37,879 nt of DNA from Thermoplasmata archaeon (GCA_021789945.1 JAJYIS010000006.1:1-37879), one strand, 5' to 3'; numbered from the stretch's first letter, positions 2 through 26,492 are shown. Notes: generated from the letters alone by a model not told the origin. A program made the numbers and translations.

Positions 2-2362
2 AACGCGAGCGACGACACTGGCCTGGCGGGCTGGTGGATATACCTGTACAAGTTCGTGGACGGCAAGCCCGTCATGGTCGGAGAGACGATGACGAACGAG
101 ACCGGGGCCTACAAGTTCTGCGACCTCGGGCCCGGGACGTACTTCGTCTCCGAGGAGACCAGGGACGGCTGGATACACACGAGCCCGAGCTCGTCTGGGA
201 ACATCACCCTGACATCGGGCCAGGCCGTGAGCTTCGACTTCCTGAACTTCCAGCTGGGCACTATAACCGGGTGGAAGTTCGAGGACCTGAACAGCAACGG
301 CGTGTGGGACCAGGGCGAGCCCGGCATCTCCGGCTGGCCGATACACATGGTCAAGGACGGCCTGCCGACGGTGTACACCACATGGACCAACTCGACCGGC
401 GGGTACACCTTCAGCGGCCTGATGCCTGAGGCGGACTACTACACCGTCTACGAGAACCCGCTCGAGAGGCCCTGCTGGACCCCGACGACCACGATCGCGT
501 TCGCCGTGAAGATGTACTCGGGCGCGAACATCGAGCTCGACCCGTTCGGGAACTTCCACAACGTGAAGATCACGGTGTTCAAGTACGAGGACGTGAACGG
601 CAACGGCGTCTCCGACAACGGAGACAAGCCGCTGGCCAACTGGACGTTCGACCTGGTGAACTCTACCGGCGCCATCGTGGCGACCGGCAAGACGAACGCC
701 ACGGGCGAGCTGACGTTCGTGATAACCCACGCGGGCAACTACACGATCCGCGAGGCGACCTACGCTGGCTGGCAGGCCGTGAACCCGGAGAGTGGAGAGA
801 TCAACATCACCGTCGTCTCGGGGCACGCGTACAACGTACTCTCGCAGGAGGAGCAGTACTACTATCCGTTCGGGAACTTCCAGCCAGGCACGATCACCGG
901 CATGAAAGGCTATGACTGGCTGATGAACGGGCTGTTCGACGGCGAGGACTACGGGCTCGGGAACTGGATCATCAACCTGCACGGGAACCTGACCGCTGGC
1001 GGAACGGTGGACCACACGGTCCTGACCGCGTCCGACGGCAGCTTCGAGTTCTCAGGGCTAGACGCGGGCGTGTACACGATCACCGAGGTCGTGCCACTGG
1101 GCTGGCACGCGACCCGGCCGTGGAGCGTGAACGTGACCATACACAGCGGCGACAACGAGAAGGTCCTGTTCATGAACGTGTACTGGGGCACCGTCTGGGG
1201 CTACAAGTTCTACGACAAGGACTTGAACGGCTCGATGGACCCGAACGAGCCCGGACTGTCCGGCTGGACCATCGTGCTGAACGGCACGAGGGACGACGGC
1301 ACCCATGTGTACGAGACCTGCATCACGAACGAGACGGGCTACTACGCCTTCACTGACATACAGCCGGGGAACTACACGATCGACGAGCTCCCGGTGGCGA
1401 CCTGGCAGGCGACGACTCACCTGCCGTTCGAGTTCAGCGTCGGCGGCGGAGGCGCGTTCGACCTGCAGTTCAACATCGGCAACATACAGTACGCCAAGAT
1501 CTGGGGCTACAAGTTCCTCGACACGTACTCGCAGACCTATCCGTTCTGGCCGAACGGCGTGCGCGACCCAGGCGAGGTCGGCCTCGGCAACTGGGAGATA
1601 ACCCTGGACGGCTGGACGATCGACGGAGTGCACGTGCACGAAGTGGTCTACACCGACAACATCGTGGACATCGGGTACTACGAGTTCGACAACCTGCTGC
1701 CCGGAACGTACACCATCAGCGAGACGCTCCTGAAGGGCTACTGGGCGACCACCCAGCTGAGCACGACGGTCATGATCTATCCGTTCCCGTACGGGCCGGT
1801 GACGAAGCACATCGACTTCGGGAACCTGATACCGTCGGCGGACCCGCAGATCAACTTCGTGCTGCAGAAGGGCTGGAACATGTGGTCGACGCCGGTGGAT
1901 GTCGCAGGCCTGAACGCGGAGACCCTGCTGCAGAGCGTGGGCTCGCACGCGGTCCTCGTCACGAGGATCGACAAGGCGGGCAACTGCCTCGACAGCTACG
2001 CTCCTGGCGACTACCAGCTGGGCATAACGCCGTTCCCGATCGTGACCGGACAGGGATACTACATCGCGGTCTCGCAGGACACGGTGTTCCAGCTCGAAGG
2101 CTACCTGCCGGGCGTGAGGACCGAGAGCCTGAGCGCCGGGTGGAACTTCATCGGGCACGACGGGCTCAAGCCGATGCTGGCCAGCCAGTTCCTGGCACAG
2201 GTCCAGGGCGGCACGGCGCTGCTCATCATGGGCTACAACCCGAACACCGGCAACCTCGATACCTATGTGATGGGCGACGGCTCGATGTACGACTTCGAGG
2301 TCTCGCCTGGAAGGGCGTACTTCGTGTATGTCCTGGGACCGGCGTCGATAACCTACACGTGA
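2..2362 (+). CDS. Secreted/surface SdrD B-like repeat protein (5' truncated by window edge)
   Basis: Frame is open from base 2 (NASDDTGLAGWWIYLYKF...). One partial and five complete repeats of the type '(G)YKFYDKDLNGSMDPNEPGLSGWTI...ETGYYAFTDIQPGNYTIDE' typical of SdrD_B/Cna-B-like Ca-binding domains. C-terminal ~170 aa 'GWNMWSTPVDV...AGWNFIGHDG' domain common in archaeal surface proteins. Confidence 0.85.
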   Translation, partial: NASDDTGLAGWWIYLYKFVDGKPVMVGETMTNETGAYKFCDLGPGTYFVSEETRDGWIHTSPSSSGNITLTSGQAVSFDFLNFQLGTITGWKFEDLNSNGVWDQGEPGISGWPIHMVKDGLPTVYTTWTNSTGGYTFSGLMPEADYYTVYENPLERPCWTPTTTIAFAVKMYSGANIELDPFGNFHNVKITVFKYEDVNGNGVSDNGDKPLANWTFDLVNSTGAIVATGKTNATGELTFVITHAGNYTIREATYAGWQAVNPESGEINITVVSGHAYNVLSQEEQYYYPFGNFQPGTITGMKGYDWLMNGLFDGEDYGLGNWIINLHGNLTAGGTVDHTVLTASDGSFEFSGLDAGVYTITEVVPLGWHATRPWSVNVTIHSGDNEKVLFMNVYWGTVWGYKFYDKDLNGSMDPNEPGLSGWTIVLNGTRDDGTHVYETCITNETGYYAFTDIQPGNYTIDELPVATWQATTHLPFEFSVGGGGAFDLQFNIGNIQYAKIWGYKFLDTYSQTYPFWPNGVRDPGEVGLGNWEITLDGWTIDGVHVHEVVYTDNIVDIGYYEFDNLLPGTYTISETLLKGYWATTQLSTTVMIYPFPYGPVTKHIDFGNLIPSADPQINFVLQKGWNMWSTPVDVAGLNAETLLQSVGSHAVLVTRIDKAGNCLDSYAPGDYQLGITPFPIVTGQGYYIAVSQDTVFQLEGYLPGVRTESLSAGWNFIGHDGLKPMLASQFLAQVQGGTALLIMGYNPNTGNLDTYVMGDGSMYDFEVSPGRAYFVYVLGPASITYT

Positions 2363-2372: not shown

Positions 2373-3044
2373 ATGAGAAACCTAACCAAACGCGGGCTGG
2401 GTTTTTACAGCCCGTCGGGAAACCATTCGATCAGCTCGGCCTTTCGACCGCTAATCGACCGTGAGGAAGTGACATACGGGTGGAGGCGGTTACGGGCCTC
2501 GGACGTCCGTCCGGGCATCGCGATGGGTTTCATGGCGGTCGGCAGGGGTTTGAGGGATCCGAGGACATTGGCGGCCATATCCGTGCTGGTGGTCGCGCTG
2601 ACCTTATCGACCATGCTCTTCGGGGGGTCCGAGCGCGGGAGCGCGTACACCTGGCCCGTGAACGTCAGGGGCTTCGTGACCGATTCCGTCGGCAACCCGG
2701 TCCAGGGGGCCAACGTGACGGTCGACATGATGTCTGGAGCCACCGTCAGGGCGACCAAGTACTATGATGCGACCCTTTCGAGCGGGCTGTACTCTGTCAC
2801 CTTCCAGTCGTCGGAGTGGGACCCAGGCAACACCATCGTCGCGATCGCCACATACGGCATCTATACGAACCAGAACAGTACCGTCGCCGCTGCGGACCCG
2901 ATCCAGTATGTCAATGTCACCCTGGCGATGACCATTCCCGAGTTCGGGAGCGTGATGGGCCTGTCTACTTCGTTCGTCACGATGGGCATGGTCGCGATAG
3001 TCATACTGGCCAGCCGGAGGCGGAAGGACCGTCTGGCTCCTTAG
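2373..3044 (+). CDS. Secreted protein with carboxypeptidase-regulatory-like/Ig-like domain and PEF-CTERM-like sorting tail (actual start possibly ATG 2523)
   Basis: N-terminal hydrophobic segment (LAAISVLVVALTLSTMLFG), one beta-sandwich-like domain, C-terminus 'IPEFGSVMGLSTSFVTMGMVAIVILASRRRKDR' = PEF motif + TM + basic tail. Confidence 0.8.
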   Translation: MRNLTKRGLGFYSPSGNHSISSAFRPLIDREEVTYGWRRLRASDVRPGIAMGFMAVGRGLRDPRTLAAISVLVVALTLSTMLFGGSERGSAYTWPVNVRGFVTDSVGNPVQGANVTVDMMSGATVRATKYYDATLSSGLYSVTFQSSEWDPGNTIVAIATYGIYTNQNSTVAAADPIQYVNVTLAMTIPEFGSVMGLSTSFVTMGMVAIVILASRRRKDRLAP

Positions 3045-3125: not shown

Positions 3126-3617
3126 ATGCTCCTCCGGTTCTGCAGAGTGCGCTTCGCATACGCCATGACCGTCGCCTTGGCCGTCGCCATGGTGGGCATG
3201 GTGCTCATGGCACACACTTCCAGTGCGGGCGTCTGGCCCTTAAACGTCAGGGGCTACGTCTGGGACAACAAGGGCAACCCGGTCCCGAACATTCCGGTCA
3301 CGGTCAACATACTCTACCAGAGCAACGGTTCCGTGAGGTCCACTTGGACCACGACCACCACCTCTATCGGGTTCTACTCGAAGAGCGTCGACTCGTCTGG
3401 ATGGGATACAGGTGACACGATACAGGTCATCGCGACGCACAACAGCAACCAGCAATCCAACTCGACGACAGCGACCGCCGCCGCAATCCAGTATGTCAAT
3501 GTGACATTCCCGTACGAGATCCCCGAGTTCGGGCCTGGCTGGGCCGGACTCGTGGCCGCGGGCGGTGCTGTCGCGGCAGTCGGAGTCGCTCTGACGATCT
3601 TCCTGAGGCGCAAGTAG
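3126..3617 (+). CDS. Paralogous secreted protein with PEF-CTERM-like sorting tail
   Basis: Signal peptide-like N-terminus; shared motifs with preceding ORF (WPxNVRGxVxDxxGNPV, SxWDxGxTI, IQYVNVT); C-terminus 'EIPEFGPGWAGLVAAGGAVAAVGVALTIFLRRK'. SD-like GAGGTGG upstream of ATG. Confidence 0.82.
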   Translation: MLLRFCRVRFAYAMTVALAVAMVGMVLMAHTSSAGVWPLNVRGYVWDNKGNPVPNIPVTVNILYQSNGSVRSTWTTTTTSIGFYSKSVDSSGWDTGDTIQVIATHNSNQQSNSTTATAAAIQYVNVTFPYEIPEFGPGWAGLVAAGGAVAAVGVALTIFLRRK

Positions 3618-3871: not shown

Positions 3872-6800
3872 TTGGTGGGTCTAGATGCCGAGCTCAGGGT
3901 GTCTACGAGGAGTCACACGGCCCCTCCACTCAAGCGCGGGCTAGCGGTCGCGTTGACCGTCGCCGTGCTCATGCTCCTTCTCGTTTCGTCATTCTCACCG
4001 ATCGCGGGAGCCGCTTCCGGCAACAGCTCTGCGGCCTCGAACGGGCATCGGGACACTACCCCTGCATCTGCCTCGCCCGCGAACTCGCACTCAAAGCGCG
4101 AATCGTGGGATTGGCCGAAGCTCGCTGACAAGACCGGGTATGTCAATGTCATTGTCTCTTGGTCCTCGAACCAGGACCCGAACTCCAGCGCCGGCTCGCA
4201 CGACGGCAAGTTCCGCGGCCTCATGGCCGAGCTGAGGAGCGGAATGAAGGAGCGGTACACGAAGGCCCTGACCGGCTTCGCGGCCCACATCAGCCTGGGA
4301 GCAGTGGACGAGTACCTCCAGAGCGATGACGAATCGTTCCAGGTATATCCGGATTACACGGTGAACGCGACCGCCTCTGGCGATATGACGAGCATCGGGG
4401 CGGACCAGGTTTGGGCGACCCAGGACCCGACGGGCGCTGCTGTCACAGGCAAGGGCATAGTGGTAGCGGTCATAGACACCGGGATCGACTACATGCACCC
4501 CGACCTGGGCGGCGGCTTCGGGCCTGGCTACAAGGTCATAGGCGGCTACGATTTCTACAATAACGACCCCGACCCTATGGATGACAACGGCCACGGCACG
4601 CATGTCGCTGGTGTGATTGCCGCGAGCGGAGGCATGACGGGCGTGGCCCCGGGAGCCTCCCTGTTGGCCTACAAGGTGCTGGGCCCGGACGGTTCCGGAA
4701 GCGTCAGCAACGTGATCGAGGCGATCGACAGGTCGATGGACCCCAATCAGGACGGCGACACTTCCGATCACGCAAACATCATAAGCATGAGCCTGGGCGG
4801 CCCGGGCCAGAGCGGTGACCCCGTCTGCACCGCAGTCGAGAACGCGGTCAATGCGGGCATCGTCGTCGTGGTCGCCGCGGGCAACGACGGCCCCGCGATG
4901 GGCACGGTCGCATCTCCGGGCCTCGCCCCGGACGCGATCACGGTGGGCGCAGTCGACAACAGCGGAGTCCTCGCTTCCTTCAGCTCAAGGGGCACATCGC
5001 CGAACCTGTCCATCAAGCCAGAGATCTGCGCCCCCGGCGTGAACATCAACTCGACGGTGCCGTTCTCGGGCGCCGCCAGAAGCTCTCCGACGGGCTATGC
5101 GATCATGAGCGGGACATCGATGGCGACACCTCATGTGAGCGGTGCTGCAGCGCTCCTGCTCCAGGAGCACCCCGGCTGGACCCCGATGCAGGTGAAGTCA
5201 GCGCTGGTGTCGGGAGCCAACCGGGTGAACGAGTCCGTGTGGGCGGCCGGCTCTGGAGACCTCTGGATCCCGGCGGCAATCAACTCCAGCCTGTTCTTCT
5301 ACCCCTCGATCGTATCGTACGGTCTCGCCGGGAGCGCCTCGAGCACCGTGAACATCTCGAACTCCGGATCAGGCGTGACGCTCACCCTGACCTCCTCGGA
5401 CTTCTTCGAACTCGACGCTGACGGGACGATGCTCCCGACCGTCTGGACCAACATCTCCTCGGCCAACCCTGCCTCCGTGTGGGCGGGGTCCGCGTCATCG
5501 ACGACCTCGGCCATCACCGTGCCCATGCCGACCGCGCAGATCCCTGAAGGATACTACGACGGCCAGGTGACTGTCTCCGGCGGGTCCTGCTCTGTCCGTT
5601 TGCCATTCGGGTTCGCGGTCCTGTCCCGCCTCAACGTACACGTGCTCGACGCGAACGGCACGGAGGTCTACGACCCGTACGGCGGAGTCTGGGTGTTCAA
5701 TGACCCGAACGGGAGCGTCGCCTTGGGCATACGGGGCAGCGTCGACGAGCCCGCACCTCCGGCCAGCTTCCTGCTGCCCTCGGGCAACTACTCCGTGCAC
5801 TCCTTCGGCCACCAGCTCCTGTACCAGTTCTCGGACCCGTTCGTCCTCGGAGCGAACATCAGCCTGGCCAGCCTGGAGACCAGGGATGTCTACCTGACGA
5901 TGTCCAGCGCTCGCATTTTCACCCTGGACCTTCAGACTGATGCCGGCCTCCCGATATACGTCAAGGACTACCGCGTCTACGGTAGGTACGTGGGCGACCA
6001 CAACATCTCGTTCCAGTTGGTCGGCTCGGACTACTCCGTCACCGGAAGCGAGGTGTTCTCGCTTCCGATGTCGAAGAACATCTATGTCTCCGACACGGAC
6101 ATCGCGATCGGCATCTCGATCTCCGGATTCGCATATTCCCCTGCAATGTGGGACTTCATGTCCCGCAACTGGCAGCACTGGTACGAGTACACGGGCTCCG
6201 ATTCCACGACGTTCTACCCTGAGGCGAGCGCTGACCTGCAGTACCTGCTGGCCTGGGAGTTCAACGGGATCAGCTCCGCGACGCCGACCATGCTGTCACT
6301 CGTTCCCGGAGAGTATTCCGTCTACGACACGAAGTACGACATACCGGGGATGCTGTCCGATGTATGGTGCGACTGGGGCACCCTGAGGCCGATAGGAGGG
6401 GACTCTGCGTTCTACATCCGCAGGGATACGGACACCTCTCTGAACCCGTTCTATTCCGGCATGACGAGAAGGACCATCGTCCAGGGCGTCTTCTCCGAGG
6501 TGTACTTCCCGGCAGACCTGTTCGAAGGGTTCTTCGAGAGGGAGTTCTACACGCCCAACTACACGAGCCTCGTCAGGGCGAACACCGCCGCCGAGGTCTA
6601 CATGCCCGACCGCAACTTCCTGACCCCGATCGACGATGTCGCTTCCGTCGAGAGGGTCGGCGCAGGCCCCTTCTATCCTGCGGTCAGGACGGCGAACACT
6701 GCGGATTCGTTCGTGCTCTACCAGCCGCTGCTCAGGGACCAGTCAGGGGCCAAGGTGGGCGGGATGTCCCTGCCCCAGATGTACCTGTACCTCAACGGCC

Positions 6801-9799
6801 AGCTCTACGGGGCCTATCAGATCGCCGAGCACCTTGCCAGGCCGGACGCGATGAGGATCACCTCTCTGTCAAGCCCTGGGAAGTATACGGCCGACATCGA
6901 CTACTCGCCTGTGCCCCAGATATGCGGCAATGTGAACATCGAGCTCGGGTTCACGATCCCAGGGACAGACATGGATCCTCCCCAGATCACGGGGCTTAAC
7001 ATGTCACAGAGGTTCGTCCCGGGCGACATCGTCCCGATAACGGTCAACGCGATAGACCTGGGCTCTTCCCCGACCGTCTCCATCTCCTGGAGAGCAGGAG
7101 CGGCGTCCCCGTGGGTCTCCATCCCAGTGACTGCGCTCGGCGGTTCGTCGTTCGGCGCGGCGATACAGACTTCGTCCAGCACGACCTCGATTGACCTGAT
7201 GATCACGGCGACCGACGCCGCGGGGAACTACCTGAAGTACACGGCCTCGGACGCCGCGGAGGCGCAGGTCCCGGTGGTCTTCGATCTCTCGGCGTCTTCG
7301 AGCGACGTCAGCTATAGGAACGGGGATGCTTCCGTCGTGCTGACGGGAACGCTCACCGACGCTCTGGGCAACCCTCTCTCGCCGATCGCCGGCGTGCCGA
7401 TCGAGCTGTCGGCCGGCGGACGCAAGGTCGCGATGATCCTCGACGAGTATGTCGCGGACGGCACGCATTCCCACAACGGCACGATACGGTTCGAATGGCA
7501 CTTCAACCCGACATACATCTTCACCGGACCGAACGAGACCGTGGACATAGACGCCTCGTTCGACCTGGGGATATATCAGCCAGTGCACTGCACGATCACA
7601 CTCCACTCGATTTACTTCTACGATCCTCCCCCGGTCATCACGCTGGTCTCGCCTGTGAACGGCTCCCTGATACCGGCGGGCCAGACGATCGATCTGCAGA
7701 TCACCGACAACGGCCCGTTCCAGGTTCAGATGTCCCTCGACGGCGGAGCCCAGAGCGCGCTCCTCAGCCCGTACGACATCAGCACCTCGTCCTGGACATC
7801 GGGAAGCCATGTCCTCCGGATCACTGCCACTGACGACCAGTTCGTCTCGACCACGTGCACCTTCAACTTCGTCGTCGACACGACCTTCCCAGTCATACGG
7901 ATTATCGACCCGCTCCCGGGGTCCTCGGTCCCGGTCGTATGGACGCTCGTGGCCAACGTGACGGACGACCATCTCGGCCAGGTGACCTACGCCCTTGACG
8001 GAGGCTCACCTCAGGCCCTGCAGAGTCCGTACACCATAAACATGACGGGCTGGGCGATAGGCTCTCACACGGTCGTCATATACGCGGTCGACCTCGCAGG
8101 CCACCATTCCTCGAATTCGACGACCTTCCAGATAGTCTCTAGCACGCTCGTCCTCACCCTGGTCAGCCCGCAGAGCGGCGATGTCGTCCATTCAGGCGTG
8201 CCGATTTCGTTCACCGTCCTTTCCCTCGGAGCGTGCACGAACAGCTGGCAGGAGTCCGGGACATGGCACTCGCTGGGCAATCAGACCTCGATCTCAACGG
8301 TTGGGTGGCCGGAGGGACCCCATACGGTCACGATCAACTCCACCGACGCCTACGGAGGCTGGGGAGAGATATCCGTCTCCTTCACGATAGACGACACTCC
8401 GCCGACCATCGTCCTCGTCTCACCCGCCAACCAGTCCTTCGTGTCCTCGACGGACAAGCTGAGCGTGGCCGTCTCCGATGCGAACTTCAAGAGCGTCTCA
8501 TGGACCCTCTGGGGAGCCACTCGGACAAGCTCCTCGGCGAGCCTTTCGATATCCCTCACCCCCAACCCAGGCGACGGGATGTTCTATGTCGACGTCAAGG
8601 CCCTCGACAAGGCCGGCAACCAAGCGAGGGACCTCTTCGTGTTCGCTCTAGACTCGTCGCCGCCCGCGCTCTCGGTGAGCGGGTTCGTCTCCGGACAGGC
8701 CGTCCGGCCGGACCAGGTGATAGCGGTCAACGCGAGCGACGCGTTCCTGTCGTCGGTATCCTTTGTCGTCGACTCGGGTCCGCTGGTCGTGCTCCAGGCA
8801 CCTTACACCTTGAACTGCAGCTCTCTGGCCCTCGGATGGCACATGATACAGCTTCGGGCGGATGACTACTCCGGGAAGAGCACCATGCTGAACGTCTCGC
8901 TGTATGTTGACGGCGTCGCCCCTACCGTGGTGACGGAGTTCCCGTCCGTCGCGGAGGCGAACACCTCCCTAGTGCTCGAGGCGAACATAACCGACGACTT
9001 CGCCGTTAGCAAGGCCATGCTCTACTACGAGCTCAGGGACGGCGCGTTCGTCTCCGTCCTGCTCCACGGATCCGGCTCGATATACTCGGCGACAGTCCCC
9101 GGGAGCTCTCTGTGGGACGGGATGGTCGCCTATGTCGTCGCCTATGACTTCGTCGGGCACTCGACCCAGAGTCCGGAGGTCGCGCTGCACATCTCAAGCG
9201 CTGCGACCGCTCCTGAGACCCCCGTGAACCATCAGGGCTTGCCGTCGTACCTGAACCTCGGGCTCGTTTCTACGCTCTCCCTGGCCGTCATCTGCGGCTC
9301 CGTCGCGTTGTTCTTCGCCCTTGGCCGCAGGCGGCACGACGAGCCTAGGAAGACAATCTCCAGCAAGTTCGGCCGAGGCAGCTCCGGGCCAAGCCCCCTG
9401 AATGCCGATAAGACGACTCTCGCTGTTCATGACTCGGCGGTCGTCGCGTGGCAGGCTCCTGGCAGGCAAATCGACGCGCCGATGCCGAAGACCCGGGCGG
9501 CCGACATTGTCGTTCCACCGGCCCCATCCGTAGCGGTCCCTCAGCCGGAGCAAGTGGGACAGCCGGAGCTGATCGATGCGATCCCGACCGTCAAGTTGAA
9601 GTCTCCCGAGCCCGAGGCGGTGGATGCTGCCGACGGGACCGACTACGGGGACCTCATCATGAAGGAGTTGGTGTTCCCGAGCCTGCTCAACTCCGTGTAC
9701 GAGAAGGAGCAGGACCACCTGTTCGAGGAAGTTGACAGGAAGCTGGACGAGCTCGAGCAGATCCTCGCGAAGGATTCGAAGAAGACTTTGGAGAAGTAG
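3872..9799 (+). CDS. Giant membrane-anchored subtilisin-like (S8) serine protease with multiple Ig-like repeats and cytosolic tail
   Basis: Signal peptide (GLAVALTVAVLMLLLVSSFSPIAGA); catalytic motifs DTGIDYMHP (Asp), HGTHVAGVIA (His), SGTSMATPHVSGAAALL (Ser); six or so repeats of '[SP]xxG..V...vS..D...v.w.ldgg...l..pY..n...w..GsH.v.i.A.D..G'; TM 'LGLVSTLSLAVICGSVALFFALGRRRH' then ~180 aa tail. Confidence 0.93.
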   Translation: MVGLDAELRVSTRSHTAPPLKRGLAVALTVAVLMLLLVSSFSPIAGAASGNSSAASNGHRDTTPASASPANSHSKRESWDWPKLADKTGYVNVIVSWSSNQDPNSSAGSHDGKFRGLMAELRSGMKERYTKALTGFAAHISLGAVDEYLQSDDESFQVYPDYTVNATASGDMTSIGADQVWATQDPTGAAVTGKGIVVAVIDTGIDYMHPDLGGGFGPGYKVIGGYDFYNNDPDPMDDNGHGTHVAGVIAASGGMTGVAPGASLLAYKVLGPDGSGSVSNVIEAIDRSMDPNQDGDTSDHANIISMSLGGPGQSGDPVCTAVENAVNAGIVVVVAAGNDGPAMGTVASPGLAPDAITVGAVDNSGVLASFSSRGTSPNLSIKPEICAPGVNINSTVPFSGAARSSPTGYAIMSGTSMATPHVSGAAALLLQEHPGWTPMQVKSALVSGANRVNESVWAAGSGDLWIPAAINSSLFFYPSIVSYGLAGSASSTVNISNSGSGVTLTLTSSDFFELDADGTMLPTVWTNISSANPASVWAGSASSTTSAITVPMPTAQIPEGYYDGQVTVSGGSCSVRLPFGFAVLSRLNVHVLDANGTEVYDPYGGVWVFNDPNGSVALGIRGSVDEPAPPASFLLPSGNYSVHSFGHQLLYQFSDPFVLGANISLASLETRDVYLTMSSARIFTLDLQTDAGLPIYVKDYRVYGRYVGDHNISFQLVGSDYSVTGSEVFSLPMSKNIYVSDTDIAIGISISGFAYSPAMWDFMSRNWQHWYEYTGSDSTTFYPEASADLQYLLAWEFNGISSATPTMLSLVPGEYSVYDTKYDIPGMLSDVWCDWGTLRPIGGDSAFYIRRDTDTSLNPFYSGMTRRTIVQGVFSEVYFPADLFEGFFEREFYTPNYTSLVRANTAAEVYMPDRNFLTPIDDVASVERVGAGPFYPAVRTANTADSFVLYQPLLRDQSGAKVGGMSLPQMYLYLNGQLYGAYQIAEHLARPDAMRITSLSSPGKYTADIDYSPVPQICGNVNIELGFTIPGTDMDPPQITGLNMSQRFVPGDIVPITVNAIDLGSSPTVSISWRAGAASPWVSIPVTALGGSSFGAAIQTSSSTTSIDLMITATDAAGNYLKYTASDAAEAQVPVVFDLSASSSDVSYRNGDASVVLTGTLTDALGNPLSPIAGVPIELSAGGRKVAMILDEYVADGTHSHNGTIRFEWHFNPTYIFTGPNETVDIDASFDLGIYQPVHCTITLHSIYFYDPPPVITLVSPVNGSLIPAGQTIDLQITDNGPFQVQMSLDGGAQSALLSPYDISTSSWTSGSHVLRITATDDQFVSTTCTFNFVVDTTFPVIRIIDPLPGSSVPVVWTLVANVTDDHLGQVTYALDGGSPQALQSPYTINMTGWAIGSHTVVIYAVDLAGHHSSNSTTFQIVSSTLVLTLVSPQSGDVVHSGVPISFTVLSLGACTNSWQESGTWHSLGNQTSISTVGWPEGPHTVTINSTDAYGGWGEISVSFTIDDTPPTIVLVSPANQSFVSSTDKLSVAVSDANFKSVSWTLWGATRTSSSASLSISLTPNPGDGMFYVDVKALDKAGNQARDLFVFALDSSPPALSVSGFVSGQAVRPDQVIAVNASDAFLSSVSFVVDSGPLVVLQAPYTLNCSSLALGWHMIQLRADDYSGKSTMLNVSLYVDGVAPTVVTEFPSVAEANTSLVLEANITDDFAVSKAMLYYELRDGAFVSVLLHGSGSIYSATVPGSSLWDGMVAYVVAYDFVGHSTQSPEVALHISSAATAPETPVNHQGLPSYLNLGLVSTLSLAVICGSVALFFALGRRRHDEPRKTISSKFGRGSSGPSPLNADKTTLAVHDSAVVAWQAPGRQIDAPMPKTRAADIVVPPAPSVAVPQPEQVGQPELIDAIPTVKLKSPEPEAVDAADGTDYGDLIMKELVFPSLLNSVYEKEQDHLFEEVDRKLDELEQILAKDSKKTLEK

Positions 9800-9801: not shown

Positions 9802-10794
9802 TCAGCTGCCTGGGACGGTGCTCTCAAGTCCGGTGCGCCTTTCCGGGACGGTCTTCTCGAACTTGTCTAACCATATGATTATCAGCGTCCAAAATACCGT
9901 CACGAAGATGACGAAGACGACGATCCCGATGTACGCGTGGAAGAATATGAGCGCCGGGTGGCCGTAGAGGTGGCCCACGAAGATCGTTATCGTCATCCTG
10001 AGGATGTTCGAGGCCCATGTCATCAGGAGGCCGAGGCCCAGTGCGAGCAGGATTCTCCTGTCCACATTCTCGTAGCGCACCAGGACGAACGCGAGGAACG
10101 CCGAGAAGAACAATCCCGCGGAGTATAGGCCGCTGCATCCGGAGCCGATACCCAGGAGCAGCATCTTGCCGCCGTACTCGTACGATATGAGGTTCGAGAT
10201 GCCGTAACCGCTCAGGTCGAGCTGGGCGCTCGCATGGACTCCCAGCAGGTTGACGACCGACACGACCGGCTGGGTTATGGAATAGTACTCCGAGTACGCC
10301 GTGACCTTGTAGAACGAGTCGCCGGTGACGACCTGGTAGATGTTCCAGATCACCGCGAACACTATGGTCATGAACATGAGATACAGCACGATGAAGTCCT
10401 TCTGCATCGCGAGCTTCGTCGGTCCGGTGTAGTAGAGGACCAGGGACAGCCCGAAGAGCGTGACGATGAAGTCCGTCATTTCAAGGTCGCTTCTCCCTGC
10501 GACGACGATCTTCCAGACGGACCATAGGAGTATGATGAGGAACCCTGCGGCAGGCAGGGCCGGCACGAGGATCTTCTTCGGAACGTATCTCGAGAAGAAC
10601 GTGAAGAGCAGGCCTTCAGGCAGGGGGCCGGACACCTTCTCCTGTCTGAGAAGCGAGTATATTACGAGAAGAAGGCCGACAGCGATGAATATGATCTCGA
10701 CGAGATACGCGGAGTGGCCGAGGTAGTGGTTGTACAATGCGCCTACGACCAGCAGGGAGCCGAGGAGCATCAGCCATTCCCTTGGGGGCCTCAC
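9802..10794 (-). CDS. Exosortase/archaeosortase family protein
   Basis: Polytopic membrane protein with exosortase-family catalytic signatures 'GIGSGCSGLYS' (Cys), 'ASNILRMTITI' (Arg) and 'FFHAYIGIV' (His). Confidence 0.92.
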   Translation of the reverse strand: MRPPREWLMLLGSLLVVGALYNHYLGHSAYLVEIIFIAVGLLLVIYSLLRQEKVSGPLPEGLLFTFFSRYVPKKILVPALPAAGFLIILLWSVWKIVVAGRSDLEMTDFIVTLFGLSLVLYYTGPTKLAMQKDFIVLYLMFMTIVFAVIWNIYQVVTGDSFYKVTAYSEYYSITQPVVSVVNLLGVHASAQLDLSGYGISNLISYEYGGKMLLLGIGSGCSGLYSAGLFFSAFLAFVLVRYENVDRRILLALGLGLLMTWASNILRMTITIFVGHLYGHPALIFFHAYIGIVVFVIFVTVFWTLIIIWLDKFEKTVPERRTGLESTVPGS

Positions 10795-10881
10795 GGGACC
10801 AGCTCAGGTCGCTCGTCGTATATAATCGTTGACGCGCGCAGTCGTCAGGCGGTATCCGTCTGGCCATGATGCTGGCTTTCA

Positions 10882-11430
10882 TCACTGCTCTGCGGTCTCC
10901 CTTCCGCCAGGCGCCTTCCTCGCTCTCGTCAGGAAGATCCCGGATGCCGTGAGCACGACCAGCATGATCGCGACCTCACTGACGGTGGTGAACCTCGTGG
11001 TCAACGATGGAAGCAGGAGGCTCAGGAAGAAGGTAGCAACGGGTTCTGAGGCAATGACCACTCCCGCAAAGACGACGGAAAGGGTGATGCCCCGCCGCGC
11101 GTGCGGAGTGCTTGGAATCATGTCGCCGCTGGGCGCGAGCGCTGCCCATGCGAGGACGAACATCGGTATCATGAGTCCGGATATCGCAGCCAGGAGAGGC
11201 CCCATGTCCAGCACCGTCGTGAAGTTCATGGATGCGGCCGCTGCCGTGCCTGTTATCAGGAGGCCGAGCACCGACGCGTTCCTGTAGGAATAGCGGCTCC
11301 CGAGCGCGATCCCCAGCGCGCCGATAACGTAGGCCAGCACCGTCAGGATGGTGATGGTGGAGAACAGCGCGAGGTCCACGATCGCGATGATGACAAGCGT
11401 GGTCGCGAGTATCCACGACCGCTCGCTCAT
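10882..11430 (-). CDS. Polytopic membrane protein, function unknown, operonic with DUF58/MoxR/archaeosortase
   Basis: About 5-6 predicted hydrophobic segments; start overlaps the DUF58 stop (11427-11430), implying translational coupling. Confidence 0.8.
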   Translation of the reverse strand: MSERSWILATTLVIIAIVDLALFSTITILTVLAYVIGALGIALGSRYSYRNASVLGLLITGTAAAASMNFTTVLDMGPLLAAISGLMIPMFVLAWAALAPSGDMIPSTPHARRGITLSVVFAGVVIASEPVATFFLSLLLPSLTTRFTTVSEVAIMLVVLTASGIFLTRARKAPGGRETAEQ

Positions 11431-12878
11431 GTCCTCCCCCTCCTGATCGCCCTTGCGATGCCCGCGGCAGTGTCTGCGGGACCGACCCTGATGAAGGACG
11501 CGCCCATCCCTCTGATGCTGCCCTCGAGCTTGATCGAATCGCCTAGGTCGCCGTACATACGCTCTATCGTTCCTGTGTCGAGCTCCTGAAGGTCCGGCCC
11601 GTACCAGTCATCGAACATGCCGACGACGAGCATGCGGTTGTTCGTCGCCTTGCACAGCTTCGCGCTCAGCAGGACGGCGTTCCGGGACGACATGAGGTCA
11701 GTCACCACAATGAACAGCTGCTCCTTCCCGCGGCCCGCCGCGATGAGCTCCTTGATGCCGCCGTCCAGGCCGTAGCCCAGCCTGCTCCGGGCCTTGGACG
11801 CCGACAGGCCTTGGAGTGTCGTAAGGAACTCCTCGCCCTTGCCCGAGTCGGAAGCGCTTATTGCGCCCGCGGACGCGACCGCGCGCGTGTCCTTGAGTTC
11901 CTCGGTTCCCGAGCGCCGGTCGGCGACATCCATCGCCCCGGGGGCGCTCCTTAGGATTTTGACCACCTTCTCGAACTGGCGCCTCCCGAGCCCCGGCGCG
12001 ACCTTGTCGATCACCCTCACCTCGTCGAACACCGCGACCCCGGTCGGATGATAGCTGCTGATGAGGACATTGGAGAGCTGCATGGACAGGTCGACCGCAT
12101 GGTCCACCTTCGCGATCCTGTGAGTCTTCAACCTCATGCTGCTGCTGCAATCGACGAACACCATCGTCTGGACCGCGCCCTCCTTCCGGTATGTCTTGGT
12201 CATCAGCTTGCCGAGCTTGGACAGCATCTTCCAGTGGATGTCCCGGGGGCGGTCGCCGGGCACATAGTCCCTGATCCCGTCGAACTCGAGCTCCCTGAGG
12301 ACGACTGCAGGGTTCCTGCCCATGCCGGAGAACTCGAGGTGCTCCCGGCCGGCCATCTTCTTCGCCGTATCGAGGCTCGCCTTCTGAGTATGGACCGTCA
12401 GGTCGCTCTTCTGCTCTATCACCTGATGCTCCGTGAACAGCCCGTACGCGTCGGTCCTTTCGATGGTCATTCCCTTGATGGAGTGTGGGCCCCGCTTGGA
12501 CGGGACCATTGTGTACGAGAGCTTCAGTATCGACCTCGGCGGCAGTGCGATTGTCGCCCTGTTGCTGCCCGCGGCTACCGTGCAGTCCTCGGGGATCTGG
12601 TCGATGAAGGTCCCCCGGATCGTCGTAGAGTGCCTGTTTAGGACCTCGACGGCGACGGCCACCGGCTCGTTAGCGAACACCATGTCGTCCAGGATCTGTC
12701 GCTCTATCTGCAGGTCCGTACTCGCCAGCTCGTACGAGAACTCCCTGTGCGCGAACACGTAGCAGCTGACGAAGACGATCGATACAACTGCGTAGGAGAT
12801 GTTCGAGTACAGGACGCCTATGAATGCGAATACGATTGAAACCGAAAGAAGTGCGGTGCCGATCGTGGTCGAGCGCAA
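11427..12878 (-). CDS. DUF58 domain protein with vWA-like region
   Basis: Two N-terminal TM segments; DUF58 signature 'RDYVPGDRPRDIHWKMLSKLGKLMTKTYRKEG'; MIDAS-like 'VFVDCSSSMRL'. Confidence 0.92.
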   Translation of the reverse strand: MRSTTIGTALLSVSIVFAFIGVLYSNISYAVVSIVFVSCYVFAHREFSYELASTDLQIERQILDDMVFANEPVAVAVEVLNRHSTTIRGTFIDQIPEDCTVAAGSNRATIALPPRSILKLSYTMVPSKRGPHSIKGMTIERTDAYGLFTEHQVIEQKSDLTVHTQKASLDTAKKMAGREHLEFSGMGRNPAVVLRELEFDGIRDYVPGDRPRDIHWKMLSKLGKLMTKTYRKEGAVQTMVFVDCSSSMRLKTHRIAKVDHAVDLSMQLSNVLISSYHPTGVAVFDEVRVIDKVAPGLGRRQFEKVVKILRSAPGAMDVADRRSGTEELKDTRAVASAGAISASDSGKGEEFLTTLQGLSASKARSRLGYGLDGGIKELIAAGRGKEQLFIVVTDLMSSRNAVLLSAKLCKATNNRMLVVGMFDDWYGPDLQELDTGTIERMYGDLGDSIKLEGSIRGMGASFIRVGPADTAAGIARAIRRGRT

Positions 12879-12899
12879 ACTCCCTCACACATTCCAGTT

Positions 12900-13871
12900 C
12901 TAGCCGCCCTTGAACTCTCCCTTGGGCACAGGCACCGACGAGAGGATTGACTCGGTGATTCCGGCTCTCGTCAATCCTCCGAGTTCTGCCTCCGGGGAGA
13001 GTATGAGCCTGTGGTCGAGGACTTTGTGCGCCATGGCCTTCACATCGTCCGGGATCGTGTACGACCTGCCGTGGATATACGCGTGGGCCTTCGAAGTCTG
13101 GAGGAGGTGGATCGCGCCTCTCGGGCTCAGGCCGAGGTCGAGGTCGTCCAGGGCCCTTGTCGCCCTTGCGATCTCCTCGACGTAATCCAATAGGCTCGGG
13201 TGCACGTGTATCTTCCATATGTCCTTGCTCATGTCGATGATGGCATCCCTTGCCAGGACCATATCGAGCTCCTGCTCCTCGGAGCTCTTCAGCTTGAGTA
13301 TGTCGACCTCCTGCTCCTTCCCGAGATAGTCCATGACGGATTTCACCATGAACCTGTCAATCTGGGCCTCGGGAAGCGGGTACACCCCCTCGGTCTCGAT
13401 CGGGTTCAGGGTCGCGATCACCATGAACTGGTCCGGGAGGTCGAAGGTGTCGCCCTCGATGGTCACCTGCCTCTCCTGCATCGCCTCCAGGAGCGCGGAC
13501 TGCGTCTTCGGGGGCGCCCTGTTTATCTCGTCCGCGAGGATCAGGTCGGCAAATAAGGGGCCTTTCCTGACCTCGAAGTCCGTCGAGCGCTGGTTGAAGA
13601 AGTAGTGGCCCGTGATGTCCGCCGGGAGAAGGTCCTGCGTGAATTGGATCCGCCTGTACGACAGCCCGCATACGGACGCGAACGCCTTCGAGAGGGTGGT
13701 CTTCGCGACCCCGGGAACCCCTTCTATGAGGAGATGCCCTCCGGACAGGAGGCATATCAGGAAGTCGTCAATCTGCTCCTCGTAGCCTACAACGGACTTG
13801 GCGACCTCTCTCTTGACCGCCTCGACCGCGCTCTCGACATCTTCGGGGGCCCTGATCTTGGTGCTATCCAT
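12900..13871 (-). CDS. MoxR family AAA+ ATPase
   Basis: Walker A 'GVPGVAKTTLSKAF', Walker B 'LILADEINRAPPKTQSALLEAMQE', MoxR-typical 'FMVIATLNPIETEGVYPLPEAQIDRF'. ATG at 13871 preferred; upstream GTG at 13964 is in frame. Confidence 0.95.
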   Translation of the reverse strand: MDSTKIRAPEDVESAVEAVKREVAKSVVGYEEQIDDFLICLLSGGHLLIEGVPGVAKTTLSKAFASVCGLSYRRIQFTQDLLPADITGHYFFNQRSTDFEVRKGPLFADLILADEINRAPPKTQSALLEAMQERQVTIEGDTFDLPDQFMVIATLNPIETEGVYPLPEAQIDRFMVKSVMDYLGKEQEVDILKLKSSEEQELDMVLARDAIIDMSKDIWKIHVHPSLLDYVEEIARATRALDDLDLGLSPRGAIHLLQTSKAHAYIHGRSYTIPDDVKAMAHKVLDHRLILSPEAELGGLTRAGITESILSSVPVPKGEFKGG

Positions 13872-13940: not shown

Positions 13941-13964
13941 GTGGATTCTTCCCTCAGAATCCAC
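13941..13964. repeat. Perfect 9-bp inverted repeat (hairpin) in moxR leader / pdo 3' region
   Basis: GTGGATTCT-TCCCTC-AGAATCCAC; arms exactly complementary, 6-nt loop. Confidence 0.7.
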
Positions 13965-14024
13965 TCATCGATAATGAACCTATGCCCTCGGGTCTGTTGC
14001 AGGTTCTGGCGCCGCCAGTATACC

Positions 14025-14690
14025 CTAGCCGTACATGCTGTCTATGAGGGCGGTGTCGGAGTCCTTCAGCTTGTCGAAGAAGTCAGCCTCTTGGATCGCC
14101 CCGGTGATGTCGGTGTTGTCGTTCAGCACGATCTTCGGGACCCCCATGACCGAGTGTCTTTGGGCAAGGTCGGCAAACAGCTGCGAGTCGATGATCTCCG
14201 CGGTCACCTTCTGTGACTCTATCGCCGCCCTGTAGGCGTGCCTCGCCACAATCGGGCAGTAGACGCAGGTCGTGAGCACGAATATCTTTATGTTCGCCCT
14301 CCTGCGCACGGTGGCCATTATGTTCCTGGCCTTCGGCGAGAGGTTCGCGTGAGAGTTCGAAAGCTCGACCATGGCATCTGCCAGAGGACCGAGCTCGTGC
14401 CCGGCAGGGACTCCGTAGTACCTGATTCTCGAGAAATCCCCCTTCGTCAGTACAATCACCGGATGGTTCTCTACCCTCAGGTCGCTCATCCGTTGGTTCT
14501 TCCCGTTGGCGACCTTCTCGACCTCCAGCTTGATCTTCGGGCTCAGCGACGAGAACGTCTGCGCGACGTCAATGACGTCCTTGGATATCGCCATCGAGTC
14601 GTCGACGAAAACGAGCAGCGTGACCTCGTCCCTCATGCCGGAGGCGAACCTCCGCTCCAGGGCGCTCCTGTCTCCCTCGCCCAGAATCAT
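14025..14690 (-). CDS. Protein disulfide oxidoreductase / glutaredoxin-like protein (archaeal PDO type)
   Basis: Two thioredoxin-fold halves; C-terminal 'IKIFVLTTCVYCPIVARHAYRAA' CxxC and 'VMGVPKIVLND' cis-Pro loop; N-terminal half lacks CxxC (VFVDDSMAIS). Confidence 0.85.
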   Translation of the reverse strand: MILGEGDRSALERRFASGMRDEVTLLVFVDDSMAISKDVIDVAQTFSSLSPKIKLEVEKVANGKNQRMSDLRVENHPVIVLTKGDFSRIRYYGVPAGHELGPLADAMVELSNSHANLSPKARNIMATVRRRANIKIFVLTTCVYCPIVARHAYRAAIESQKVTAEIIDSQLFADLAQRHSVMGVPKIVLNDNTDITGAIQEADFFDKLKDSDTALIDSMYG

Positions 14691-14703: not shown

Positions 14704-15051
14704 CTACATCGATTCCAGGACTATATCTCCGTATGCCTGGATGAAGTACTCCTTCGCCTGAGCCAGCCCGTCCCTTCCGGCCGAGGTGAGCTTGTACACG
14801 CGGGTGTTGCCCTTCTTTGTCGACTCGACCAGGCCCCTCTTCTGCATGTCCTTGAGCGTCGGGTAGAGCGTCCCCGGGTTCGGCTTGTCGGCCTTGCGTT
14901 TGGCTATCTCCTCCGCGATCTCCATACCGTACATCGGGCCCTTGGACAGTATGTGCATGATCAGGAAGCTGAGCATCCCCCTCATATCGCAGCATACCGG
15001 CGCCCTGCAGCACTCGACATCTATGCTGGCTTCGCCTCGCCTGGCCGTCAT
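14704..15051 (-). CDS. PadR family transcriptional regulator with Cys-rich N-terminus
   Basis: 'MLSFLIMHILSKGPMYGMEIAEEI...PNPGTLYPTLKDMQKRGLVES...TRVYKLTSAGRDGL' PadR wHTH; N-terminal extension VECCRAPVCCD. Confidence 0.9.
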   Translation of the reverse strand: MTARRGEASIDVECCRAPVCCDMRGMLSFLIMHILSKGPMYGMEIAEEIAKRKADKPNPGTLYPTLKDMQKRGLVESTKKGNTRVYKLTSAGRDGLAQAKEYFIQAYGDIVLESM

Positions 15052-15338: not shown

Positions 15339-16205
15339 ATGGCCAAGAGGAATATGAGTCCCAAGGCCCGCGCAGGGCCGGGTTACAGGAAGAGCAAGCC
15401 CAAGTTCAGTCCAGAGGACGTCCGAAAGGCTGTGAGGGAGAACTACACGAAGCTGGCTCTGACTCAGGCGCCGTGCTGCGGTACGACTCAGTCATCATCG
15501 TGTGGCTGCGGCACGCTGTATCCGCAGGCCGAGATCGTGTCGCTACCATCGGAGGCCGTCGCTGTGAGCGCTGGCTGCGGAAATCCGACAGCGATCGCCA
15601 GCCTCAAGGAGGGCATGACTGTCGTGGACCTGGGCAGCGGTGGCGGCATAGACTGCTTCCTGTCCGCCAAGAAGGTCGGGGGGAAGGGCAGGGTCATAGG
15701 CATCGACGCCACCCCCGAGATGATCTATCGTGCGCGGAAGACCGCCGAAGAGAACGGGTACAAGAACGTCGAGTTCAGGCTGGGCGAGATCGAGCACATG
15801 CCGCTCGAGAAGGAGACGGCCGATGTCATCATCAGCAACTGCGTCATCAACCTCTCACCGGAGAAAGAGCAGGTCTTCAGGGACGCCTTCAGGGTCCTGA
15901 AGCCAGGCGGCAAGCTCGCGGTGTCGGACATAGTTCTGTTGAAGGACCTCCCCAAGGACATGGTCGATGACATAGGCACATGGTCGAAGTGCGTAAGCGG
16001 TGCGGTCAAGGAGTCGGAGTACATCGGCGCGATGAAGAAGGCCGGCTTCGAGAGGATCAAGGTCGAGGAGCGCGTGGTGTACTCCCATGAGGAGCTCAAG
16101 GGATATGCCGAGGGCACGGTCTCGATCGATTCCCCGAAGCTCAAGGGCGTCGACCTGTCGGACCTCGTGGCGAGCTACAAGATAAGCGCCTTCAAGCCCA
16201 AGTGA
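15339..16205 (+). CDS. arsM: Arsenite methyltransferase-like SAM-dependent methyltransferase
   Basis: '[44 protein letters not shown]', '[40 protein letters not shown]', '[13 protein letters not shown]' and N-terminal CCG; the NCVINL and KCVSGA Cys positions are ArsM hallmarks. Confidence 0.88.
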
Positions 16206-17345: not shown

Positions 17346-18848
17346 TCAGTGCTTCCCCATCAGCTTCTTCTCGGCCTCTTTGACCACCTTGGCGAGCTCC
17401 CTCTCGACATCCTTGTCGAGCGGGGTCGGCTGGTGCTCCTTGAGGATATTCTTGACCTTCCCCCTCGCGGCATCCTGGAGCGGCCTGAGCCCCTCCTTCC
17501 TGACCCTCTCGCCTGTGCGCTTGTCGTACAGTTCGGATATCCGCATCTCGCCCGCGCGCAGGTGCTTCATGGTGTGCGGGAGCGCGAGGAAGTTGCCCAT
17601 CGGCCCGACCTTGTCGATCATGTCGAGGGCGAGGCTGTCGTCGTCCACGCCAATGCCGCCCGTGATCCTGAACACGTCGGAATAGATCTCGTCGTCGATG
17701 ACTAGGAGCTCGTAGCTCCCTGCGTTCTCCCAGCCGCCGCCTATCCCGGACAGGTTGTCGGCGCCGGAGAGCGCTGGCAGGAGCGCGGTCATCGTTCGCT
17801 CGATGCCCATCTGCATATCGAATTGGTATACGTCTGAGGTCACACCGTAGACATCCGCGATCATATGGTACCTGTGCGCAATCTGGACGGCCGCCGCCGA
17901 GGCCAGCGCCATCTCCGGGTTCCCCCAGACATTATTCCCGCTCCTCAGGTCCATCATGCTCAACCTGGCGGAGTACTGTATGACGGTCTTCGGCTCGACG
18001 GACTGGACCAGCATGACACCCGCGAGCAGCTCCGCGTTCTGCTGCGCCAGGCCCCCCGCAAGGGTCATCGGCGCGGTCCCGCCCGAGATCGGGCAGGGCA
18101 CGAGGTCCACCGGGACGCCGTACTCCGCGCCCCTGATCATCACATCGGCAGCGTGAGCGTCGTACGTTAGCGGGCTGCTCGGCGAGCCGTAGACATCGAG
18201 CAGGGGCCTCTTCCTCAGGGCCTCCATGCCACCCGTCACGCACGCCCACATCTTGGCCAGTATCTCCACCGTCGGCACGTTGAGCGCGTACCCGGAGATG
18301 CACTTGCTCGAGTTCTTCATCATGGCCTCCATCGACTTGACCACGAGCATCTCGGGCGGGACATCCGTGGCGACCACTAGGTTCGAGATGGAGTGGCAGT
18401 TGGGGAGGGCGTCCATAATCCTCGTGACCTTCTCGACGTCGTCCAACCTCGCCATCCTGACCTCGTTCGTGTCGAGGTCCTTCATGTTCGGGTTTCCTCC
18501 CGTGCCGTGCGCGAACTGGTGCTCCCCGTCGAACTTCATGTCGTTCTTGGGCTCCCGGGCGAAGTAGGTACCGTAGTGCGGTATCTTCCTGATCGAGTCC
18601 TTCACCATGCTCCTTGGGAATGTCAGCACGTCCTTTCTAGAGGGGTGCTTGGCGGCTCCTGCCTTCAGCAGCCTGGCCCGGGCATTCTCGCTGTCGAACC
18701 TCACGCCGGTCCGCTCAAGGATCTTCAGGGTGGCTTCGTGGATGTCCTCCAGCTGGTCGTCCGCAAGGACCTTCAGCTTGAACCTGACCTTCTTGCCTTC
18801 CAAATGAATCGCCTCTCTCTCTCCGGTCCAGGCGCCCCCGAAAAGCAT
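17346..18848 (-). CDS. Trimethylamine methyltransferase (MttB) superfamily protein, no in-frame amber codon (start may be TTG 18800)
   Basis: 'LEDIHEATLKILERTGVRFDSENARARLLKAGA', 'GYALNVPTVEI', 'PISGGTAPMTLAGGLAQQNAELLAGVMLVQ', 'GIGVDDDSLALDMIDKVGPMGNFL'; ORF continuous over 500 aa. Confidence 0.88.
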   Translation of the reverse strand: MLFGGAWTGEREAIHLEGKKVRFKLKVLADDQLEDIHEATLKILERTGVRFDSENARARLLKAGAAKHPSRKDVLTFPRSMVKDSIRKIPHYGTYFAREPKNDMKFDGEHQFAHGTGGNPNMKDLDTNEVRMARLDDVEKVTRIMDALPNCHSISNLVVATDVPPEMLVVKSMEAMMKNSSKCISGYALNVPTVEILAKMWACVTGGMEALRKRPLLDVYGSPSSPLTYDAHAADVMIRGAEYGVPVDLVPCPISGGTAPMTLAGGLAQQNAELLAGVMLVQSVEPKTVIQYSARLSMMDLRSGNNVWGNPEMALASAAAVQIAHRYHMIADVYGVTSDVYQFDMQMGIERTMTALLPALSGADNLSGIGGGWENAGSYELLVIDDEIYSDVFRITGGIGVDDDSLALDMIDKVGPMGNFLALPHTMKHLRAGEMRISELYDKRTGERVRKEGLRPLQDAARGKVKNILKEHQPTPLDKDVERELAKVVKEAEKKLMGKH

Positions 18849-22435: not shown

Positions 22436-23413
22436 CTATTGATCCTGAGTGGAGTACCAGGACAGTTTCGATTTCTTCAGGTGCTCCTTGACTGCTATCT
22501 TGGCCGCCGCCCGGACCGCTTCCTCGCTCGAATGCGCGGGCGCCCATCCGAGCTTCTTCATCTTCTTGCCAGACAGCAGGAACACGGGCACATCCCCGGC
22601 CCATCCGCTCTCGCCGCCGGTGTACTTTGTCTTCACGCCCTTGAGATGGGTCTCATCGATGAGTATCTTCACGATGTCCTTGACGCTCGTCTGGTCCTCC
22701 GCGCAGAGGTTGAAGTAGTTCAATCTGTCCCTAGCGTTCCTTAGCCCGAAGACCATCCCGTCCACGCACTCCTCAACGAGCATGTACGATTTCCTCTGCT
22801 TTCCGTTCCCGAGGACTTCGAGCCTTCTCGGATTCTTGTTGAGCTTCGCGACAAGGTCGTAGAGTATCCCGTGCGTGCTCCTATGGCCCACCACGTTCGC
22901 GAAGCGGTATATCCAGGCCTTAATCCCATACAATTCGGAGTATGCGGAGATTAGCCCTTCGCACGCGAGCTTCGAGGCGCCATAGAGCGATATCGGCAGA
23001 AGCGGCCCGTAGTCCTCTGGCGTCGGCAGAGTCTCGGCCCTTCCGTAGATGGTCGAGGTCGACGAGAACACAAAGTTCTTGATGTCGGTCCTCCGGGCGC
23101 ATTCCAGCGTGTTGTAGGTGGCGATCGTGTTCTGCTCCAGGTCCACCATCGTCGATGCGGTCCCCTTTCTGATGTCGGGGTTCGCGGCCAGGTGCCAGAC
23201 GGTGTCGTGGCCGCGCATTTCCTTGGCAAGGGTCTTCACGTCGAGGAGGTCGGCCTTCACGAATTTGAAGTACTCGTTGCTGAAATGGTGCGAAATGAAC
23301 TCCTCTTTTCCCGTGCTTAGATTGTCGTAGACTGTGACGCCGTTCCTTGGAGCCAGTCTGTCGACCACGAAGCTCCCGATGAACCCCGCACCGCCGGTCA
23401 CGAAATGCTGCAT
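22436..23413 (-). CDS. NAD-dependent epimerase/dehydratase (UDP-glucose 4-epimerase-like SDR)
   Basis: 'MQHFVTGGAGFIGSFVVDRL', 'FVFSSTSTIYGRAETLPTPEDYGPLLPISLYGASKLACEGLI' (YxxxK). Confidence 0.92.
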   Translation of the reverse strand: MQHFVTGGAGFIGSFVVDRLAPRNGVTVYDNLSTGKEEFISHHFSNEYFKFVKADLLDVKTLAKEMRGHDTVWHLAANPDIRKGTASTMVDLEQNTIATYNTLECARRTDIKNFVFSSTSTIYGRAETLPTPEDYGPLLPISLYGASKLACEGLISAYSELYGIKAWIYRFANVVGHRSTHGILYDLVAKLNKNPRRLEVLGNGKQRKSYMLVEECVDGMVFGLRNARDRLNYFNLCAEDQTSVKDIVKILIDETHLKGVKTKYTGGESGWAGDVPVFLLSGKKMKKLGWAPAHSSEEAVRAAAKIAVKEHLKKSKLSWYSTQDQ

Positions 23414-23436
23414 TTTCCGCAACTCCCTTTATCGCT

Positions 23437-23462
23437 GGCGGCCACCAAATCTCCTGGCCGCC
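23437..23462. repeat. Perfect 8-bp inverted repeat in epimerase promoter region
   Basis: GGCGGCCA-(10 nt)-TGGCCGCC flanked by TAAAAAA. Confidence 0.6.
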
Positions 23463-23529
23463 TAAAAAAGCTTCTTGGGCCGTGCGGATGGCCCGCGAGT
23501 GCCCTCCCGTCCCGTCTAGTCCGCTGTTT

Positions 23530-23575
23530 CATACAGAAATGTATTATACGCATAAGTATTATACTTAAGTGTATG
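23530..23575. promoter_or_regulatory. AT-rich 46-bp imperfect palindrome with two GTATTATAC units (candidate operator/promoter of ATPase gene)
   Basis: CATACAGAAATGTATTATACGCATAAGTATTATACTTAAGTGTATG; GTATTATAC at 23541-23549 and 23556-23564, CATACA/TGTATG at ends. Confidence 0.6.
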
Positions 23576-23630
23576 AAGGGGCGCCGGGCCGGCCTTGCCC
23601 CGGGACGAGCGCCCCGGAAAGGTGCAGAGG

Positions 23631-24740: not shown

Positions 24741-24818
24741 GCTCATACGGGCGCCTATGTCCTCTATTTGACCCCATCTCAATACGGTTATCTTCTCCGA
24801 TGCTCATGCGGAACGACT

Positions 24819-25901: not shown

Positions 25902-25966
25902 GCGGGCCAGATGTTCGGCAAATTCTCATATAGTGTCCACATGGTTAGGTCGGTGCGATAGGAGCC

Positions 25967-26452: not shown

Positions 26453-26464
26453 CCGGGGCCGGCC

Positions 26465-26482
26465 GTCCACGGAGCCGTGGAC
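26465..26482. repeat. Perfect 8-bp inverted repeat adjacent to TATA box
   Basis: GTCCACGG-AG-CCGTGGAC, 4 nt upstream of TTATATA. Confidence 0.6.
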
Positions 26483-26485
26483 AGC

Positions 26486-26492
26486 TTATATA
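26486..26492 (+). promoter_or_regulatory. TATA box of a probably leaderless glycosyltransferase gene
   Basis: TTATATA centred ~28 nt upstream of ATG 26517. Confidence 0.55.

Follow-up and report, generated by a model that had tools for sequence, protein, structure and literature searches.

The 37,879-nucleotide stretch analysed here (the window; Thermoplasmata archaeon, GCA_021789945.1, JAJYIS010000006.1:1-37879) carries four consecutive minus-strand genes at positions 9802–13871, encoding, in this order, a MoxR-family AAA+ ATPase, a DUF58 protein with a vWA domain, a six-helix membrane protein and an archaeosortase. Their order and their spacings (21 bp, a 4-nt overlap and 87 bp) agree fully with an earlier note on this DNA, which had read the genes as an energy-dependent sorting or maturation complex. 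The features of the locus are:

12900–13871 (−): MoxR-family AAA+ ATPase, 323 aa, ATG at 13871; PF07726 (E = 9e-62) and AAA_lid_2 (E = 1.5e-19)
11427–12878 (−): DUF58/vWA protein, 483 aa, TTG start; PF01882 at 54 bits (cutoff 23)
10882–11430 (−): six-helix membrane protein, 182 aa, starting inside the DUF58 stop codon
10819–10825 (−): TATA box TTATATA, inside the 87-bp gap and beginning 31 nt before the GTG of the archaeosortase
9802–10794 (−): archaeosortase, 330 aa, GTG start; TIGR04178 at 44.3 bits (cutoff 23) and PF09721 at 28.3 bits (cutoff 25.7)

The MoxR-type AAA_3 ATPase and its vWA-type DUF58 partner are adjacent, 21 bp apart, and both score above their profile cutoffs. The ATPase has the Walker A motif GVPGVAKT and the Walker B motif LILADEINRAPP, and an alternative open GTG start lies upstream at 13964. 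The vWA domain carries the motif DCSSS, with D243, C244 and S247 unchanged in an alignment of 14 relatives. For the 182-aa protein, a profile search against Pfam and NCBIfam returned zero matches; its AlphaFold2 (AF2) model contains six helices (pLDDT 76) in a fold for which no PDB match was found, and its homologs are confined to the same Thermoplasmata family, except for one weak match elsewhere (E = 4.6e-5).

Conservation of the neighbourhood and its parts elsewhere

Orthologs were searched for among 150 relatives, and the neighbourhoods were then read with wider flanks. Close archaeosortase orthologs were restricted to one Thermoplasmata family, comprising three genera of uncultured archaea, with identities of 52–61% in the relatives search and 49–57% across the alignment; the named records carrying them are metagenome-assembled genomes (MAGs), with the labels Thermoplasmata, Candidatus Thermoplasmatota or Euryarchaeota. 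In all 16 family genomes that carry it, the archaeosortase has the six-helix gene and DUF58 immediately upstream, and MoxR is next upstream in 13 of the 13 loci where the contig extends far enough. Among the 16, the six-helix gene is recognisable only in part in G010, and a run of Ns interrupts MoxR in G018; two further family genomes have the MoxR-DUF58 side on contigs that stop short of the archaeosortase position. The 4-nt overlap of DUF58 and the six-helix gene is kept in every locus where both ends are readable, and the MoxR-DUF58 spacing ranges from −4 to 21 bp among relatives. Because this order is kept in 16/16 genomes at ∼49–61% archaeosortase identity, the four-gene neighbourhood is real, far beyond chance and conserved over the long term.

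The genes upstream of MoxR differ among genera (a PadR-PDO pair in one, others elsewhere), while the four-gene core is never broken. In the genus of the window, MoxR is preceded by:

14025–14690 (−): protein disulfide oxidoreductase (PDO)-like gene, 169.8 bits (cutoff 185)
14704–15051 (−): PadR regulator

A PDO gene also stands before MoxR in another genus (L095), with different genes at this place in further relatives. An apparent second copy of the cluster in G009 (L044, G009:C1:2000–19000) is a 2.7-kb segment between 100-N gaps at 7351–7451 and 10158–10258 of a published 'chromosome' MAG; as it shares 86% identity with a bin named in the same series, we rejected a unit duplication, and the copy was apparently inserted from a relative during scaffolding.

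Outside this family, MoxR-DUF58 and the archaeosortase are not tied to each other. We read 83 archaeosortase-family loci from outside the family (23 from nearer relatives and 60 phylum-wide by TIGR04178, with several kb on each side, contig permitting), of which none had DUF58 and none a convincing MoxR in the flanks; a single 24-bit AAA+-like match was discounted. The earlier note held that the functional link would fail if the archaeosortase were only rarely beside MoxR/DUF58 in related genomes; the linkage is strict within one Thermoplasmata family (16/16) and absent beyond it (0/83 beside DUF58), and a general archaeal system of this composition was rejected on these counts. Twelve MoxR/DUF58 loci of other families of the class (L096–L098, L100–L104, L106, L108, L109 and L111) encode a protein of 156–216 aa with three to six transmembrane (TM) helices directly after DUF58, and no archaeosortase; in several of them (the f7 loci), MoxR and the DUF58 pair are convergently oriented. 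These small membrane proteins are positional equivalents of the 182-aa protein, and homology to it was unsupported (hhalign E 0.01–0.2, no PDB fold match). When both parts occur in class genomes outside the family, they are on different contigs or far apart, and their co-occurrence is uninformative.

Promoters and transcription units

The TATA box in the 87-bp gap was missed by the earlier note, as were the convergent giant subtilase and the nearby PEFG-tailed proteins described below. Such a box precedes the archaeosortase in 17 of 17 loci (the 16 genomes plus one scaffold piece), as TTATATA, TTAAATA or GTATATA, with its first base 16–35 nt before the start, where shuffles lead one to expect 0.32. 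Its distance to the start is near constant (28–35 nt in 14/17), while the gap to the upstream gene varies from 12 to 125 bp; the box is kept even where this gap falls to 12 bp, and in L048 it overlaps the stop codon of the six-helix gene. The same scan found a TATA box before none of 30 six-helix and DUF58 starts. Across the window there are four distinct TATA-like sites, two of them exactly 31 nt before start codons, namely those of the archaeosortase and of a glycosyltransferase-like gene at 26517. A TATA box so close to the start codon is the arrangement seen with leaderless archaeal transcripts.

The archaeosortase probably has its own conserved promoter, predicted to be of the leaderless type, and the four genes are probably not strictly one operon. 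A single uniform four-gene operon was rejected because a TATA box is conserved in front of the archaeosortase, and the simplest model would be a three-gene operon plus a separately initiated archaeosortase. Upstream of MoxR (∼13950–13990) lies a separate conserved element, unlike the archaeosortase promoter, which reads roughly ATAG-TT-ATTATCGATGAG-GGATTC in one genus and ATACATTCATGAAC-...-GGGATT in others. It was seen also in L033, L035, L037 and L094, and in L043, L046–L048 and L095, and is possibly a regulated promoter.

The archaeosortase and its candidate substrates

Both TIGR04178 and PF09721, each above its curated cutoff, place the protein in the exosortase/archaeosortase superfamily, and its orthologs are polytopic, with 5–8 hydrophobic segments. 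Three candidate catalytic residues, C220, R266 and H286, are invariant across an alignment of 13 orthologs, with codons at:

10137–10135 (−): Cys220
9999–9997 (−): Arg266
9939–9937 (−): His286

The catalytic residues of Haloferax volcanii ArtA are Cys173, Arg214 and Arg253 (PMC9263693); we infer that Cys220 and Arg266 match the first two, with His286 in third place. ArtA further resembles the protein studied here in being a polytopic archaeosortase acting on a tripartite tail (PMC9263693), and differs in that its tail is of the PGF type and its third residue is arginine rather than the histidine proposed here.

The nearest characterised family is ArtC (TIGR03762), the best-scoring model for all 13 orthologs, but the score of 45.6 bits lies well below that model's cutoff of 100, and by NCBI's rule the protein is not an ArtC member. 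ArtC reportedly recognises PEF-CTERM (PMC5244752), and PEF-motif tripartite tails are encoded in this genome. The likeness extends to the PEF motif, hydrophobic helix and basic tail of the candidate substrates and to the conserved Cys, Arg and His, whereas the below-cutoff score, the PEFG form of the tails and the phylogeny set the protein apart: tree inference gathers the linked archaeosortases in a single, fully supported group on a long branch, separate from the other archaeosortases of the class. The locus is best read as a new archaeosortase clade of a divergent PEF type. The same genomes carry a second, divergent archaeosortase outside any MoxR context (G000:C78:4686–5597, L069, with relatives L070–L072).

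The genes beyond the archaeosortase, on the opposite strand, are:

3872–9799 (+): giant surface subtilase (S8), 1975 aa; PF00082 (E = 2e-65)
3126–3617 (+): candidate substrate, 163 aa, signal-like N-terminus and C-terminal PEFG-hydrophobic-RRK
2373–3044 (+): candidate substrate, 223 aa, weakly CarboxypepD_reg/Big_1-like, C-terminal PEFG-hydrophobic-RRRK
2–2362 (+): SdrD-B/SpaA-repeat surface protein, running off the window start; PF17210 (E = 2.7e-52)

The two PEFG-tailed neighbours, encoded 6–8 kb from the archaeosortase, are its likely substrates, a pairing well supported by context and in keeping with the PEF/PGF-type sorting tails named in the earlier note. Proteins with such tails occupy the corresponding position on the far side of the subtilase in L035, L037, L043, L045 and L046, and archaeosortases of other families lie directly beside PEFG or PEF tails in L054, L061 and L062. 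By DNA pattern, the genome has 17 PEFG-coding sites, of which 8 fall at the extreme C-terminus of an open reading frame and precede a hydrophobic stretch and basic residues; two of these eight tripartite tails adjoin this cluster. A division of PEFG tails by an early proline is suggestive and was not relied on, the classes having been picked after inspection; tails with the early proline may be substrates of the second archaeosortase.

The subtilase is convergent with the archaeosortase, with ends 2 bp apart, and is adjacent to it in most of the family's loci with a long enough contig. It is secreted, with a C-terminal membrane helix followed by a long tail; as it has no PEF/PGF tail and continues far beyond its last membrane helix, it was rejected as a sortase substrate.

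Other genes of the window include an arsenite methyltransferase, ArsM (15339–16205, +; 306 bits, cutoff 263), divergent from the PadR-PDO pair, and an MttB-family methyltransferase of the trimethylamine type (17346–18848, −; 402.9 bits, cutoff 525), which recurs near the cluster in relatives. The latter is probably a non-pyrrolysine member, because its 500 codons contain no in-frame stop. A sugar-nucleotide/glycosyltransferase cluster at 22436–34916 (WecB, GDP-mannose dehydratase, heptose kinase-like gene, epimerases), ∼12 kb from the archaeosortase, probably serves surface glycan synthesis.

Two envelope units or one complex

In the AF2 model of the DUF58 protein, an N-terminal two-helix membrane hairpin and a beta-sandwich are confident, and the vWA half is poor. 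The vWA part is most simply placed in the cytosol, because the hairpin returns to the side of the N-terminus and MoxR has neither a signal nor a membrane helix; access to a client would then run through the membrane, e.g. via the six-helix protein. Known MoxR AAA+ ATPases with a vWA-domain partner include NorQ/NorD and RavA/ViaA (PMC13036017, PMC10585395), from which the present pair differs in that its partner is a DUF58 protein anchored in the membrane and containing a beta-sandwich. NorQ engages the vWA finger of NorD and strains its linker, so that metal can be inserted into a membrane enzyme (PMC13036017). The other MoxR-DUF58 loci of Thermoplasmata share the gene for a small membrane protein with several helices immediately behind DUF58, and differ in having no archaeosortase and, in several cases, a convergent MoxR.

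We favour, with moderate confidence, the reading that the locus combines two adjacent envelope units held in strict, lineage-specific synteny. MoxR, DUF58 and the six-helix gene would form one operon, in which a cytosolic AAA+ ring works on the membrane-anchored DUF58 protein and the small integral membrane protein, and serves the maturation or remodelling of some client in the membrane or envelope, in the manner of NorQ/NorD and RavA/ViaA. Transcription of the archaeosortase would start mainly at its own leaderless TATA promoter, with read-through from the operon possible, and the enzyme would cleave the PEFG-hydrophobic-basic tails carried by exported surface proteins, among them the two encoded nearby. 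Catalysis would be by Cys220, Arg266 and His286, its basic chemistry independent of the AAA+ unit. Some points weigh against keeping the units apart. The synteny persists at ∼50% protein divergence, and the archaeosortases of this locus form a separate clade on a long branch of their own; such conservation exceeds what is usual for mere neighbours and could reflect functional coupling. A promoter before the last gene is also compatible with read-through from the operon. Coupling of the archaeosortase with the MoxR-DUF58-six-helix unit is possible.

The explanation nearest to the remodelling or gating complex of the earlier note would have a MoxR hexamer drive the DUF58 linker, with DUF58 and the six-helix protein bound to the archaeosortase in the membrane, activating it or presenting its substrates. 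The strict gene order in 16/16 genomes of three genera speaks for it, as do an archaeosortase clade found solely in the MoxR-DUF58 setting, a six-helix protein that is essentially as family-specific as the linkage, and the precedent of MoxR/vWA pairs that remodel a specific client (NorQD, PMC13036017). The archaeosortase nevertheless has a separate conserved promoter, and either part is found without the other elsewhere. ArtA, the one well-studied archaeosortase, is reported to have PssA and PssD as helpers, not MoxR (PMC9263693), and the vWA and AAA+ parts are probably cytosolic whereas the sorting tails sit on exported surface proteins, which weakens the single-complex reading. The earlier interpretation is thus supported in part, by a strictly conserved linkage and a likely PEF-type substrate, and we regard the complex itself as rather unlikely. 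The earlier note had named a promoter in the 87-bp gap, together with missing co-expression, as what would undo the functional link, and the first of these is what the 17 loci display. At the other extreme, a sortase-substrate-subtilase island may simply have settled beside a MoxR operon in the family ancestor and stayed there with no functional relation to it. Restriction to one taxonomic family and the separate archaeosortase promoter fit this account, as does the separate surface-protein island that the convergent subtilase gene and the genes for PEFG-tailed proteins form on the far side; the turnover of genes upstream of MoxR around an intact four-gene core argues against it, and we consider plain frozen synteny improbable.

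Archaeosortases anchor major surface proteins, and few of their partner proteins are known. A literature search, whose scope left out the 2012 archaeosortase survey, found no publication naming an archaeosortase and MoxR together, in agreement with the earlier view that no system of this composition has been described; nor did the literature searched contain an ATP-driven archaeosortase cofactor. It is a speculative and unlikely proposition that in this family MoxR-DUF58-six-helix turned into an ATP-driven helper dedicated to a divergent PEFG-type archaeosortase; if true, it would couple cytosolic ATP hydrolysis to surface-protein sorting. Even if the coupling is false, what remains is a new and well-defined archaeosortase clade whose likely substrates are encoded close by. 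A sortase clade that always lies beside MoxR-DUF58, with its own promoter, offers a test case for AAA+/vWA-assisted sorting, and the locus suggests the envelope as a client area for the widespread MoxR-DUF58 modules of Archaea.

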